64,000 nt of DNA. It comes from Hexactinellida sp. DTS-2022 (Eukaryota > Porifera > Hexactinellida). The notes beneath the pieces are model-generated. The model saw nothing but the letters and a program-made list of their open reading frames with translations. It was not told the origin of the DNA and made no database searches. Numbering within the stretch: the stretch's first letter is position 1; every line of letters starts with the position of its first letter. Position numbers and translations under genes: made by a program. Shown one piece after another: positions 28,081 through 50,435 of this stretch. Location: assembly GCA_028753945.1 (NCBI GenBank), contig JAPNXP010000005.1, forward strand, positions 2,976,001-3,040,000. The letters are read 5' to 3'.

Positions 28081-28278
28081 ATGTTTAGTCAATTAGTCTA
28101 TTTAGTTGCTTTGTTTTGTCTCCAGGGGCATATTAATTTTGTTCATGTTTCCATAAAAAATGTTAACCTATGGTAACGCAGCTACTATATGTCATACACA
28201 GGGGCGTAGCCACGAGATAGAGATTGGTAGGGTCTGGTTATGAGTCATCAAAGGTAGGGATTTTGGGATAATTTTCAT

Positions 28279-28675
28279 GGCGCGCTTGCAATTGGTCGAC
28301 TTTTGTAGGTTTGCAATTGGTCGACTTTTGTAGGTATGCAATTGGTCGACTATTCTAAGGTATGCAATTGGTCGACTATTCTAGGGTATGCAATTGGTCG
28401 ACTATTCTAGGGTATGCAATTGGTCGACTATTCTAAGGTATGCAATTGGTCGACTATTCTAAGGTATGCAATTGGTCGACTATTCTAAGGTATGCAATTG
28501 GTCGACTATTCTAAGCTAAGGTATGCAATTGGTCGACTATTCTAGGGTATGCAATTGGTCGACTATTCTAAGGTATGCAATTGGTCGACTATTCTAAGCT
28601 AAGGTATGCAATTGGTCGACTATTCTAGGGTTTGCAATTGGTCGACTATTCTAGGGTTTGCAATTGGTCGACTAT
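28279..28675 (+). repeat. Left minisatellite TIR of the MULE
   Basis: Fifteen copies of the GCAATTGGTCGAC core. The usual period is 26 bp; two units have an extra CTAAG and the first two carry the TTTTGTAG variant. Confidence 0.92.
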
Positions 28676-28717
28676 TTCATTTTACATTTTTTTAATCTAA
28701 TTATTTTTCATTTAGTG

Positions 28718-28871
28718 CTGGGTTTTTTTAAGGTTGAGACATTGATGTAACTCAGCGCGGCCTTGGTGTAACTCAACACTTCAGCCGCCGCGGCCGACCC
28801 ATAATCGTGGTGTAACTCCAAAAAATCTTGGTGCAAAATTTACACCAAGATCGGCCTTAAAAAAAACCCTG
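28718..28871. mobile_element. 154-bp hAT-type MITE inside the MULE, exact TSD
   Basis: CTGGGTTTTTTTAAGG and the inverse of CAGGGTTTTTTTTAAGG, flanked by ATTTAGTG on both sides (28710-28717, 28872-28879). It lies downstream of the transposase stop. Confidence 0.88.
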
Positions 28872-28951
28872 ATTTAGTGTAAACTAAAGTGTAATAGTTG
28901 AAGTAACTGAAACATGTAAAGAAATGACAAGAAGTAATGAATGTAAAAATA

Positions 28952-30547
28952 CTAAGTAAATATGTTGAATCTATCTTCTATTGTGCACCTGCATATTGGA
29001 CATTTTTCCAAGTGTGTACTGCATTCTTCACAACATTTAGCATGCCTGCAAGGAAGAAAAACAACTGTTGATTCTCTAGGTAATAAGCATACACAGCAGT
29101 TAGCATTTTCGCTGTGTTCCTCATTGTCCTCCTCAAATTCTGACGAAGAGTCGTTTTGAAGTTCTCCATTGAGCGAATCGGTATATATATGAATAGAGTT
29201 GGCTATGGAATAGAGGTAGACAATCGGACTATATTCTCCTGATTCGAGCTTTTGCTTGCAATTTAAACGAAAAGAATCATTTTCTATATCCCTTAGCTTT
29301 CTATTGCGTGTAATTTCAATCCCGTTGCATAGACGCTCTATGTCTAAATCTGTGTCCTGTATCGTATTGTTGAGGATCTCAATAAACAACCATATGCGTG
29401 GATGAGACACTATAATGTCCCTTTTTAATCGACCGTGATAATTCTCTGCCCCATTATTTGTTTTATGTTGGCAGTTAAATATAGAGAGTTCATTGGTAGG
29501 AACTCCATTGATCCACTGTTTTCTCATATACTTCTTTAAGATGGTAAGTTTTGTCATATTATCTGCACTAAGCAAGATATCTTCCAGTTCAAGTTGGTTA
29601 TATGTTGAGAGAATTTGATCAGCAGGAAGGAATGGAAGAGACATAAATGTCCTGATTAGTGCTCGAAATTTTTGATTCGAATGGTAGACATTGGAAAGGC
29701 CTAATTTTTGAACCTTCCGCCAAATACTTTGGGAGTAATGAAAGTAACAACCTCTAAGATAAATACCCTGAAACTGTTTCTTCACAGCATTTCTAGCCCC
29801 CTTTTCCCAATCAGACATCCCATGGATAGGCATTCATTGAGGAATAAGCTCATGAACTTTCGCTAAAATAGCAGTGTAGAGTTCTTCACTCTTAGATGTA
29901 AGGAGACAGTGGATAACTGGTAGCACGTGGCGTTGGAAGCGTGCGAAAATGGTCCACAGTTGATAAAACTGAGATGGCACTGTGTAAAATGTACCATCGA
30001 AATACACGTCTTCTACTTCAGAGAGTATAGTAGACATCTTATCTGAGAAAAAGACTATTCCAACATCACAACCTACTTGTACCTCACCTTTGAAATATAT
30101 ACCGAACGGTGATAATGGTATCATTTCCAAAAATTCGATAGGAGTTCTAGGAATAGGAGGCTCTATTTCCCTTCTTGCTCGATACATTGTAGCCTCTAAA
30201 CTTTTGTAAGACACAAGAGCAGCAGCAGGATCATCGCGGACTACTTGCTTAAATACTTTAGATAATCTGTCACATGAAGATCTCGCCGCGTTTAGACACT
30301 TTGATTTTAATTCGAAAATGTCAGCTTTATAGTGAGAAATTGGATGATTATGAGGGTTTAAGGGTACAATAGTATTAAATTCGGCTTTCAACTTCGCAGA
30401 TCCTTTACATTTACTTGTATCCTTATATAGCACACATCGTAGATATGTAATCTGAGATTTTACTTTATACTGTGTATATTTGAAACCATCCGATGTTGAA
30501 AAGATTGTTCCTCTTTTATGTTTATAATGCCCGCGAGTATATTCCAT
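28952..30547 (-). CDS. FLYWCH-MULE-RING transposase with one in-frame TGA
   Basis: Two abutting frames in the same phase (30547-29834, 237 codons plus TGA; 29833-28952, 293 codons) form one 531-position protein. The start is ATG 30547. An N-terminal FLYWCH-type zinc finger spans residues 18-70 with C39, C47, H66 and H68. The MULE RNase H-like core follows: FDGTF (D184), then MSDWEKGARNAV (D246, seven codons after the stop) and CYFH (C267, H270). TNNGAENYHGRLKR contributes E368. A C-terminal C3HC4 RING occupies residues 484-531 (CCVC, PCRH, CCEEC, CPIC), preceded by an acidic linker. RING modules are not part of the usual MULE transposase. The TGA lies in the core, so the copy is probably dead unless the stop is read through or is a sequencing error. 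Confidence 0.85.
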
Positions 30548-30693
30548 GATGCAATATGAAATGTTATGATGAATGCAGTTTCGAATGAATACTTATTTAG
30601 ATATAAAATATGGATAATAAAACTGGTATTTATATAAAAGAAAGGATGTGTATATTTCACACCCTGAGAATGTATAGCATCAGATTAGATGAA

Positions 30694-31098
30694 ACCTATG
30701 TCGACCAATTGCATACCTTAGCTTAGAATAGTCGACCAATTGCAAACCCTAGAATACTCGACCAATTGCATACCTTAGCTTAGAATAGTCGACCAATTGC
30801 ATACCTTAGAATAGTCGACCAATTGCATACCCTAGAATAGTCGACCAATTGCATACCTTAGAATAGTCGACCAATTGCATACCTTAGAATAGTCGACCAA
30901 TTGCATACCCTAGAATAGTCGACCAATTGCATACCCTAGAATAGTCGACCAATTGCATACCTTAGAATAGTCGACCAATTGCATACCTTAGCTTAGAATA
31001 GTCGACCAATTGCATACCTTAGAATAGTCGACCAATTGCATACCTACAAAAGTCGACCAATTGCAAACCTACAAAAGTCGACCAATTGCAGCGTCCCC
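30694..31098 (-). repeat. Right minisatellite TIR of the MULE
   Basis: Fifteen copies of GTCGACCAATTGC, the inverse of the left array; the two outermost copies again carry the CTACAAAA variant. Confidence 0.92.
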
Positions 31099-31208
31099 AT
31101 TTTCATTATGTTTATTAGAAAAACTAATTCTCGAGATATTATTGGTAGAGCCATGGCTCTACCAAGCCTACCGAATCTACGCACATCATACATGATGTAT
31201 TTTACTAA

Positions 31209-42119: not shown

Positions 42120-42545
42120 CCATATCTACTCGCCTTAGTTTTTTTGGTCCTACCCCCAATTGATTTACTCGCCATAGTTTTTTTTGGTCCTACCCCAATT
42201 GGTTTACTCGCCTTAGTTTTTTTCTGGTCCTACCCCCAATTGGTTTACTCGCCATAGTTTTTTTCTGGTCCTATCTCCAATTGGTTTACTCGCCTTATTT
42301 ATTTTTCCGATCCTACCCCTAATTGGTTTACTCGCCTTATTTATTTTCCGATCCTACCCATAATTGGTTTACTCGCCTTAGTTTTTTTTTGGTCCTACCC
42401 CCAATTGGTTTACTCGCCTTAGTTTTTTTCTGGGCCTACCCCCAATTGGTTTACTCGCCTTAGTTTTTTTCTGGTCCTACCCCCAAATTGGTTTACTCGC
42501 CTTATTTATTTTCCGATCCACCCCTAATAGGTTTACTCGCCTTAT
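42120..42545 (+). repeat. Minisatellite built on TTTACTCGCCTTA
   Basis: Irregular units of about 45-60 bp with GGTCCTACCCCCAATTGGTT followed by TACTCGCCTTAG and a T run. Confidence 0.85.
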
Positions 42546-42659: not shown

Positions 42660-43498
42660 CAGTAGAAGCCAGTGATGTTTTCCAGGGGGAACGCGGGGGA
42701 ACGCCGTTCCCCCACTATTTTTGCTGGGGGAACGCCGTTCCCCCAATGGCAGTAATGTTTTCCATAGGGAACGCGGGGAAACGCCGTTCTCCCACTATTT
42801 TCTCTGGGGGAACATCGTTTCCCAATGAGAAAATTCAAGCCCGGAGGGAACAGCGTTCCCCTAAAGATCACTCAGTTGTACAACTGTTTGTTTACGTGTT
42901 GTTTGAACTTTGATGTCTTTTTTAATCAGACGAGACCGTCAATCTAGGGCTCAACGAGGGTTTGTTAATAACATACTTAACAAGAATGAAATAGAATAGT
43001 TAAATTATATGATGCTTTGTTTAATACTAGTGTCATCAATTGTTAAAGGGAGCGAAGCTCCTGTTTAGCCTAATTTAGAAGTTTTGTATAGGATGTCTTT
43101 ATTAAGTTCGTCAATAAGCTCCAAACTTACTTTACACTTGCTGGAAGATCATAATTAGTCGTTGAGAATTAAATTTGGAAGATTATATGGTATATACTTG
43201 TCAGGAAAGTCAAAATTTCCCAAATGCAACCCCTGCAGGTTGCAAAATTGGGCAAACAAAATAAGTGCCTCAAATTCACTCATATTCCTAACCACTTTTG
43301 GATTTAGACCAATTAGAATGACTCACAACAGTACACACTCGAAAATTCGCAATTCTGCAAATTTTAATTTTTTTGAGCGTTCCCCCACTTCAAAAATTGG
43401 CAAAACATCACTGGTAGAAGCTCGCAAACCGGGGCACCTTGGCGTTTCTGAAATATGCCCCACTTTGGGAGAGTGCCCCGGTTTGCGAGCTTCTACTG
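42660..43498. mobile_element. Palindromic pogo/mariner-type MITE split by a hAT-type element
   Basis: Bases 42660-42669 and 43414-43498 join to a roughly 87-bp palindrome starting CAGTAGAAGCTCGCAAACCG, flanked by TA at 42658 and 43499. Confidence 0.85.
42670..43413. mobile_element. 744-bp hAT-type element, copy 1, exact TSD
   Basis: CAGTGATGTTTTCCAGGGGG at the left and the inverse of CAGTGATGTTTTGCC at the right, flanked by GTAGAAGC (42662-42669, 43414-43421). The left 170 bp are repeated GGGGGAACGCCGTTCCCCC palindromes. There is no convincing transposase. Nearly identical to 49356-50143. Confidence 0.92.
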
Positions 43499-43514
43499 TA
43501 TACTATAGAGCCAA

Positions 43515-43780
43515 ATATTTACACGCCTTGATTTACTCGCCTTAATTTTTTACTCGCCTTAATTTTTACACGCCTTAATTTTACTAGCCTTAATTTTTAA
43601 CTCGCCTTAATTTTTTACACGCCTTAATTTTACTCGCCTTAATTTTTTACACGCCTTAATTTTACTCGCCTTAAATTTTTAATCGCCTTAATTTTACTCG
43701 CCTTAATTTTTACACGCATTAATTTTACTCGCCTTAATTTTTTACACGCCTTAATTTTACTAGCCTTAATTTTTTCCATC
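43515..43780 (+). repeat. Minisatellite built on ACTCGCCTTAATTTT
   Basis: More than ten units of 15-18 bp alternating ACTCGCCTTAATTTT and ACACGCCTTAATTTT. Confidence 0.88.
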
Positions 43781-48489: not shown

Positions 48490-50435
48490 ATTCGTCAAAT
48501 ATCCAAAGTGCTAAGTTGTCATTTTGTCTTCCGATTTTGTCTTTCGAGGCCAAAAATATTTACCTGTTAAGCGGTAGGCTCTGATTTTTAGATGTACTTC
48601 ATCTAAATGTAGTGTAACATTCCATTCTTGGTTATTAAATTTAGCAGTAGAAGCCATCGGATAATTTTTCAACAAGCACTCCAAGCTTAAAGTGCAATAA
48701 AGATTACTTAGGGTTGCTGGGTGGGGGAAGGTAGACAATTTAAAGAATGTAAGTAGATGTAGCAAATCGAAGGAATTAAAAAGCATTTTAAAGCTAGCAC
48801 CATAGTAATTACATTGTATCTTCTTCAACTTTAGGAATAAGAATATTCTCAAGTTGTCACAGTAAAACCTTAGCTGGGGTAACAATTCTGAATTATTCTC
48901 TAATGTATAATTTGAAGTTTCTATATTCGAAATTTCACTTTCGATGTGAGCAGTAGCTTCATTAATACTTTTTTCAACACAATCCTTAGTACGTATATAG
49001 TGAAACATCACTGATGATTTCATCGATTTCTCTAATATCGCTGAGATGGTTGATTGAGAGAGGAATTGAATGTTTTGATAGAAGCTTATTGGTTTAAGGA
49101 GTCATTAATTGTAATAGATATTTGTTTTTCATTCGATAGTTATATCAAGTCTATACAAGTGTCCTCTGAAAACCAATTTACCCAAGAAGTCGGGAGATCA
49201 AAATCCGCGAGCTTATGTTTTAATTCCGCTAACGATCTGACACAGAACTTTTTAATTTCAGTGTTATGGATATCAATGCTCAGTTCTAAGGCTTGAAAGA
49301 ACAAGTTAATCTTAATCTTATTACGATTTAAACGTTCAGGCTTAGCGGACTGTAGCAGTGATGTTTTCCAGGGGGAACGCGGGGGAACGCCGTTCCCCCA
49401 CTATTTTTGCTGGGGGAACGCCGTTCCCCCAATGGCAGTAATGTTTTCCATAGGGAACGCGGGGAAACGCCGTTCTCCCACTATTTTCTCTGGGGGAACA
49501 TCGTTTCCCAATGAGAAAATTCAAGCCCGGAGGGAACAGCGTTCCCCTAAAGATCACTCAGTTGTACAACTGTTTGTTTACGTGTTGTTTGAACTTTGAT
49601 GTCTTTTTTAATCAGACGAGACCGTCAATCTAGGGCTCAACGAGGGTTTGTTAATAACATACTTAACAAGAATGAAATAGAATAGTTAAATTATATGATG
49701 CTTTGTTTAATACTAGTGTCATCAATTGTTAAAGGGAGCGAAGCTCCTGTTTAGCCTAATTTAGAAGTTTTGTATAGGATGTCTTTATTAAGTTCGTCAA
49801 TAAGCTCCAAACTTACTTTACACTTGCTGGAAGATCATAATTAGTCGTTGAGAATTAAATTTGGAAGATTATATGGTATATACTTGTCAGGAAAGTCAAA
49901 ATTTCCCAAATGCAACCCCTGCAGGTTGCAAAATTGGGCAAACAAAATAAGTGCCTCAAATTCACTCATATTCCTAACCACTTTTGGATTTAGACCAATT
50001 AGAATGACTCACAACAGTACACACTCGAAAATTCGCAATTCTGCAAATTTTAATTTTTTTTGATCATATATGGTCATGTGGATGTTTCCAATTTTGATTT
50101 TCATGAGCGTTCCCCCACTTCAAAAATTGGCAAAACATCACTGGACTGTAGTTATGTGCTTAGATACTCGGGACGATTGGGGAGAAGACAAGGTCTATAA
50201 TTCTAACGAAAAAAGGGTTGACGAGGAATCTTCTGTATTGAAACATCAGGTTGAATAATATCCACTTCAGTAATTAAATCATTGTCAGCAAAATGTTTAG
50301 AACAGAGGAATATGTTCTTCTGATCTTCAATATCCTCCCTGTGGAGAGCGCGTATCGATATTTCTCTAACGTCTTGAGGATTCCATGTTAATTAGAATTA
50401 GAAAACTGGTGTATACGGCAACCAGGTGCTGAGCA
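48490..50435 (-). pseudogene. THAP-domain P-superfamily transposase remnant
   Basis: The THAP exon region lies at about 50433-50160: CSAPGCRIHQFSNSN, a stop and shift, then ALHREDIEDQKNIFLCSKHF and LLPNRPEYLS, giving the C2CH pattern. A hAT-type element (49356-50143) interrupts it. The frame then continues at about 49355 with SAKPERLNRNKIKINLFFQA and IKKFCVRSLAELKHKLADFD. 49023-48511 carries LPQLRFYCDNLRIFLFLKLK and EWNVTLHLDEVHLKIRAYR with the first catalytic Asp. The rest of the core is missing and a Helitron fragment lies just beyond. It diverges from the intact copy and may be a third subfamily. Inactive. Confidence 0.75.
49356..50143. mobile_element. 788-bp hAT-type element, copy 2, exact TSD
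   Basis: Nearly identical to 42670-43413, but with about 44 extra bp (near 50060-50105) before the right end. Flanked by GACTGTAG on both sides (49348-49355, 50144-50151). Confidence 0.92.

Follow-up and report, generated by a model that had tools for sequence, protein, structure and literature searches.

The element at the window locus is an authentic, now defective copy of a known kind of transposon with some new features, a foldback-type Mutator-like element (MULE), and it belongs to a large clade of RING-bearing MULEs in this genome (the window being the whole 64,000-nucleotide stretch of DNA that was analysed). Comparison of its relatives makes it probable that these elements combine an outer docking platform with a plastic inner array, that array order was copied from end to end in the past and that arrays and bodies have been exchanged. 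The striking equality of the two arrays, with 15 units on each side, is most likely a coincidence.

The element spans 2,820 bp (28279-31098) with exact 8-bp duplications on either side. Its features, in window coordinates, are as follows.

28271..28278, no strand: left target-site duplication ATTTTCAT, an exact 8-bp match with 31099-31106
28279..28288, plus strand: alpha tip GGCGCGCTTG, outside the array; the alpha-type tip across two-ended group-A copies
28289..28676, plus strand: left (alpha) array, 15 units of 25, 26 or 31 bp with core CAATTGGTCGAC
28718..28871, no strand: nested inverted-repeat element of 154 bp, with 8-bp duplication ATTTAGTG at 28710-28717 and 28872-28879
28952..29833, minus strand: C-terminal part of the transposase in the same frame as the N-terminal part, with the rest of the MULE domain and the RING
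28973..29107, minus strand: C-terminal IAP-type RING finger, found by domain search
29834..30547, minus strand: N-terminal part of the transposase up to an in-frame TGA, with FLYWCH and the start of the MULE domain
30700..31088, minus strand: right (beta) array, 15 units in inverse orientation
31089..31098, minus strand: beta tip GGGGACGCTG, outside the array
31099..31106, no strand: right target-site duplication ATTTTCAT, an exact 8-bp match with 28271-28278

An earlier note on this DNA had described a MULE with exact flanking duplications, whose ends are mirror-image arrays of a 26-bp unit, 15 on each side, with variant units at the same outermost positions. The duplications are indeed exact, there are 15 units per side in opposite orientation as assembled and each array starts, on the outside, with the same two 25-bp variants. 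Units of 26 bp are present but the units are not uniform, and the mirror image extends to inverted arrays of equal number but not to the unit orders or the tips, both of which differ and rule out an exact mirror image. With one letter for each unit type and the innermost unit omitted, the left order reads DFABBAAACBACHH and the right DFACABBAABACIC; a CA that follows the third unit is found in the right array alone and, deeper in, an AC is present only in the left array, and the totals are equal because these two 2-unit indels compensate. Nor are the two tips, which lie beyond the arrays, inverted copies of each other. The array pattern is not due to chance, since the 112.4-Mb genome searched (18 contigs) has 155 occurrences of GCAATTGGTCGACTATTCTA, 80 forward and 75 reverse, against 0 for the pattern read backwards. 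The window holds other repeats: minisatellite-like arrays of 41-bp and ~15/32-bp units at 42127-42544 and 43514-43774, with TTACTCGCCTTA in both consensuses, and an 80-bp tandem pair (beginning CAGTAATGTTTTCCAGAGGGAACGCG) that appears twice, at 42670-42827 and 49355-49513, ~6.7 kb apart.

A DNA search of the genome returned at least 124 matching pieces and 39 loci (20, 11, 5 and 3) were fetched around DNA and array matches. Seventeen of these, >90% identical where alignable, form group A, in which the window copy is L009, and both ends were found in 13; the two-ended set omits L011 (one end truncated), L040, L041 and L043 (second array not found), and two hybrids, L052 and L053, also lie outside it. 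Here alpha denotes the left end and beta the right, and each of the 13 copies has one alpha-type and one beta-type tip, with single changes in some and a degraded beta tip in L012. Two subfamilies, B1 and B2, are ~72% identical, with tips and units of their own. Among the 25 of 39 fetched loci that were examined for duplications, with boundaries allowed to slide up to 3 bp, 12 had exact 8-bp and four exact 9-bp duplications, six had 9-10 bp with one mismatch, and none was present at L027 or L032, while L025 was checked at one end only. The nested 154-bp element is shared by L009, L010 and L011, whereas L012 lacks it and has a single ATTTAGTG; the stretch that it occupies (28718-28871) has further matches elsewhere in the genome. 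Group-A copy L013, on contig C12, is interrupted by an insertion whose 574-aa ORF resembles, by eye, a hAT transposase. A long, related satellite that is not a simple telomere repeat was seen at four of six contig ends (L045, L046, L048 and L050, on C14, C2 and C1), repeating every 212 bp in both L046 and L050; a different satellite, of 408 bp, stands at the start of C1 (L049), and the start of C2 reads N.

Comparison of unit number and order across copies, which the earlier note had proposed, confirmed tandem ends elsewhere but found counts and orders to be often unequal. The alpha/beta counts of the 13 copies were 15/15, 14/12, 5/5, 10/18, 12/15, 11/13, 11/13, 10/11, 9/6, 7/7, 6/6, 6/4 and 4/4, with 10/18 and 9/6 as extremes. 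Equality in only five of 13 speaks against the proposal that equal number is upheld by conversion or is functionally required. The requirement can be put more strongly, namely that repeat number itself matters and that transposition needs matched numbers of sites at both ends. Those five equal copies do exceed the expectation from shuffles (0.002), and active Muta1 has been described with terminal inverted repeats (TIRs) of nine subterminal repeats (PMC5225508, seen in part). However, copies with exact duplications have unequal counts (14/12 in L010, 11/13 in L015 and L016, 9/6 in L018), L013, whose duplication has one mismatch, has 10/18 and L071 has 16 and 12 units. From the portions of the sources available, the arrays of Tm1 are also unlike between ends (PMC3169594), and the Muta1 transposase moved natural nonautonomous elements of differing TIR length, although no natural one moved as often as an artificial one (PMC5225508). 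A need for matched numbers is thus very unlikely. Still less credible is that the equality is an assembly artefact of collapsed or mirrored arrays: the arrays are of ~390 bp inside contigs of megabases, and each copy has its own unit order, private variants and its own duplication.

Alpha and beta counts are nevertheless correlated over the 13 copies (Spearman 0.84). Among the eight copies with at least nine units at one end rho was only 0.40 (p 0.32), so that the correlation seems to stem from a division into lineages with long and with short arrays. In L012, which is 92% identical and has no nested element, there are ~5 units per end, which suggests that array expansion probably followed the split from L012.

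Whether the ends are kept alike now or were made alike once was addressed by array-order comparisons, from which each array's innermost unit was omitted. One explanation is that gene conversion or foldback copying continuously homogenises both ends, with equal arrays as the steady state. It is consistent with the correlated counts, with a mean within-copy alpha-beta distance (1.93) below that of shuffled partners (p 0.007) and with L019, whose alpha and beta arrays are mutual nearest neighbours. Yet the nearest of the 26 arrays was most often the same end of another copy (16), then the opposite end of another copy (7), and the array's own other end in just three, although these distances hinge on the chosen gap cost and the copies are related by descent. 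Shared runs of units were compared in 13 hand-picked array pairs; the shuffles left the first two units in place, and near variants were scored as the nearest unit type. The window's own ends have a common run of just five units (equalled in 922 of 5000 shuffles), whereas L009 alpha and L011 beta have one of 12, which 0 of 5000 shuffles reached; L009 alpha and L013 beta likewise share a 12-unit run (1 of 5000). The run was of four units between L010 alpha and beta (2126 of 5000) and of six between L010 alpha and L011 beta (258 of 5000). Furthermore, units specific to one end are retained in the B1-ended copies for which units were listed (L022, L026, L052 and L053), so that likeness of the ends is no rule of the clade. 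The nearest-array and shared-run results rule out ongoing end-to-end conversion as the main process, and continuous homogenisation as a steady state is an unlikely explanation. The 12-unit order common to opposite ends points instead to an ancestor in which one end acquired the array order of the other by copying, the two then changing separately. The suggestion that the ends are alike by copying is hence retained for a past event but not for ongoing upkeep, and the suggestion that conversion keeps them alike is at odds with an own-end match in only three of the 26 arrays. Some coupling of the two ends is possible, given the low within-copy distance and the correlated counts.

Nine further loci were examined (L057, L060-L062 and L067-L071, of which L057 is L011, L060 is L023 and L067 overlaps L062). 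All nine have tandem and inverted repeats near their ends, L069 reaching the edge of its stretch, and in L069 and L070 (39 and 37% protein identity) the units are unlike the core; eight of the nine have a RING-like end of the longest ORF, that of L061 stopping before the RING. The consensus cores, picked by eye, are CAATTGGTCGAC in A, CAATTGATCGAC in B1, CAATTGATCAAC in L062, CATTTGTTCGAC in L068 and CACTTGTTAGAA in L071, with 0, 1, 2, 2 and 4 differences from the A core, respectively, and the protein identity of the last three is 56%, 46% and 45%. Across six families the first spacing was 24-26 bp in 62 of 64 tip-anchored ends and the second in 61 of 64, while later spacings fell in this range in 236 of 330 and differed between families, with inner spacings of 26/31 in A, 25/22/21 in B1 and 31 in L068 and L071. 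These last two are the clearest, with 24, 25 and then mainly 31 at both ends. The count omits ends with fewer than four units or no recognisable tip, and eight of the 64 ends (L061, L062, L068 and L071) were started by hand; family labels were loose, the alpha end of L026 (a B1 copy) standing under A and L034, L038 and L051 under B2, which leaves the 64-end total unaffected. Ends within one family are not independent in this count, and common descent rather than selection may account for part of the constancy of the outer spacing. Between A and B1, conservation was 0.87 in the core and 0.41 in the spacer, and between A and B2 0.82 and 0.61 (L012 omitted); since the core itself served to locate the units, the core values are inflated. 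The near-fixed outer spacing suggests that three outer sites form a docking platform, with a plastic array further in. It is plausible that the array repeats are transposase sites, for which the fixed outer spacing argues indirectly and core conservation weakly. A literature search largely confined to work outside subscription found no description of a fixed outer spacing with a family-specific inner period.

Relatives of the element suggest that arrays can be swapped between elements. A body of ~430 bp, lengthened in L020 by an insertion, is common to nine group-A MITEs (L014-L021 and L042) and to the hybrids L052 and L053. The bodies of L014 and L016 are 100% identical over 432 bp, those of L015 and L019 are 99.5% and 98.4% identical to L014, and those of L052 and L053 are ~80-92% identical to other MITE bodies. 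The alpha array of L014 was at a distance of 0.79 from that of the autonomous L009, 1.27 from L016 and 1.82 from L019, and its beta array at 1.14, 1.50 and 2.36, respectively. At both ends L014 is thus nearer to the autonomous copy than to these relatives of its body. The picture is mixed, since the closest array to that of L016 was L019 alpha for its alpha end and L010 alpha for its beta end. In the two hybrids B1 tips and arrays stand at both ends while the innermost unit and the body are A-type. Each hybrid is flanked by a separate duplication, exact in L053 and 10 bp long with one mismatch in L052, which indicates that the hybrids have moved. We infer that they arose when an excised element was gap-repaired from another copy, with two breakpoints inside the arrays, which would give the hybrid structure while keeping the alpha/beta identity. 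The same largely non-subscription search gave no description of a MULE in which MITEs with the same body carry differing arrays at both ends. Arrays that are unlike at both ends of a fixed body could allow a nonautonomous element to follow whichever transposase is current.

The assignment to the MULEs holds, on the basis of the MULE domain of relatives, the 8-bp duplications, the long inverted repeat ends and the MITE derivatives. In the window copy the FLYWCH domain (~30344-30517) scored 24.1 bits (E 4.2e-5) against a cut-off of 23.6, the MULE fragments flanking the TGA were both below cut-off (E 0.019 and 0.036) and the RING (PF13920) reached 36.9 bits (E 3.2e-9, cut-off 27). FLYWCH fell just below cut-off in L010 (23.1) and L023 (21.9) and was not listed for L011, the N-terminus of which is changed, and the MULE domain (PF10551) was above cut-off in L011 (4.6e-9), L023 (7.7e-9) and L010 (5.4e-9). 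L011 has an open frame of 520 aa with a RING at 3.2e-9, and RING and MULE domain lie in one ORF in both L011 and L023. The L011 RING matched cIAP2 (3eb5, E 2.8e-10) and cIAP1 (6hpr, E 1.1e-9), and the match to BIRC7 (4auq) reached residue 519 of 520, so that the short C-terminal tail is included. In IAPs this tail after the RING serves dimerisation and activity. The motifs FDGTF, MSDWE and NNGAENYH, which we take to be a putative DDE catalytic triad, align between families, with a K at the E of NNGAENYH in L011; none of the five transposase-bearing group-A copies (L009-L013) is clearly intact. A dN/dS of 0.22 between L011 and L023 over 520 codons supports purifying selection on the protein, with 0.10 in the RING and 0.37 in the preceding 60 residues. 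For the RING (44 codons) the ratio was 0.19 between L023 and L022 and 0.48 between L011 and L022, above the 0.29 of the 60 residues before it in the latter pair; the two low pairs both include L023 and are not independent. A protein search of the genome gave at least 87 matching pieces (83 of 2377 candidates scored), and among the 87 listed 61 extend through the RING, to query residue 510 at least, and 48 have no internal stop. One scan of viral contigs for the C-terminal ORF returned 10 pattern matches and no relative.

Taken together, a mechanism can be proposed in which each unit core is a putative binding site for the transposase, perhaps through the FLYWCH domain. The outermost three units, with their near-fixed steps of 24-26 bp, would serve as docking platform in transposition, as the fixed outer spacing in six families leads us to read them, and the inner units would be extra sites, growing and shrinking by slippage or unequal exchange, so that equal counts at both ends would not be required. 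An inverted copy of one end's array would once have been placed at the other end, within the tips, and inherited from then on. Because the arrays provide homology for gap repair or conversion, bodies and arrays could be exchanged between autonomous copies and MITEs, with the identity of the ends as alpha or beta kept throughout. A bolder version, in which the transposase of the clade is an IAP-type RING ubiquitin ligase, each end has a three-site outer platform and exchangeable inner cassettes, and an array swap changes which autonomous family mobilises a MITE, is offered tentatively and is perhaps rather doubtful. A transposase joined to a ubiquitin-ligase-type RING would be a testable link between transposition and protein turnover.

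The comparison with foldback MULEs and those with subterminal repeats, also proposed by the earlier note, placed the element closest in plan to Tm1, Phantom and Muta1; it shares the plan of Tm1 and Muta1 but is not Tm1 by its unit or usual duplication. A text search on foldback elements and conversion, largely restricted to non-subscription literature, found no paper. All statements on published systems refer to the portions of the cited papers that were available. Tm1 of root-knot nematodes (Mutator/Foldback) resembles the present elements in its FLYWCH-MULE transposase, its MITE derivatives, and asymmetric short end motifs outside inverted tandem arrays of unequal unit number (PMC3169594); the elements studied here have this composite TIR, an asymmetric tip plus a tandem unit, and also MITE derivatives, and in more distant families of the genome the array ends are built from other units. 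Tm1 differs in its mostly 14-bp units of other sequence in 1-9 copies and in duplications most often of 9 bp, compared with mainly 8 bp here, and its main text has no match to the word 'ring' (PMC3169594). Membership of Tm1 is ruled out by the other unit, the other tips and the mainly 8-bp duplications.

Muta1 of Aedes aegypti and its relatives have long TIRs with a terminal motif and subterminal tandem repeats, and nonautonomous copies with variable repeat number, as seen here; Muta1 has nine copies of 12 bp and duplications of 8 or 9 bp, and was shown to transpose in yeast (PMC5225508). Unlike the present elements it has another, shorter repeat, and the text available mentions no RING (PMC5225508). 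Phantom elements have no finger or a FLYWCH or SWIM finger and duplications of 8-10 bp, and aphid members carry a minisatellite after the ORF, whereas arrays stand at both ends here (PMC6446971); the N-terminal FLYWCH with MULE of Phantom is present in the window copy. Ghost has its RING in a separate ORF (PMC6446971), while here the RING is fused to the C-terminus of the transposase. That arrangement of the most complete published element was not found in L011 or L023, where the RING is in the same ORF, which argues against an assignment to Ghost. This separate-ORF RING was the sole case met in a search, largely outside subscription literature, for a RING fused to a MULE transposase, of which no published example was found (PMC6446971, available in part). 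Rehavkus has a PHD finger, and its minisatellite precedes the 3' TIR (PMC6446971); the domain searches listed no PHD match and a RING instead, which argues against Rehavkus as well.

Outside the MULEs, Galileo of Drosophila has long TIRs that are internally repetitive in some subfamilies (PMC3573991, PMC3688188), and X-E-X chimeras, with the ends of one subfamily and the centre of another, that are like the hybrids found here (PMC3573991). A domain of its transposase was shown to bind within its repeats (PMC3688188). Galileo belongs, however, to the P-element superfamily, with a THAP domain (PMC3573991, PMC3688188), and the domain searches listed no THAP or P-type transposase match, which eliminates Galileo and the P element. 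Tetris of Drosophila virilis is unlike the present elements in its 220-bp repeats, which have spread into satellite arrays, and no transposase was found for it (PMC4079207). Long, internally repetitive transposon ends recur in unrelated superfamilies and their purpose is debated; the present clade separates, within one genome, a near-invariant outer spacing that looks functional from a plastic inner array that follows lineage.
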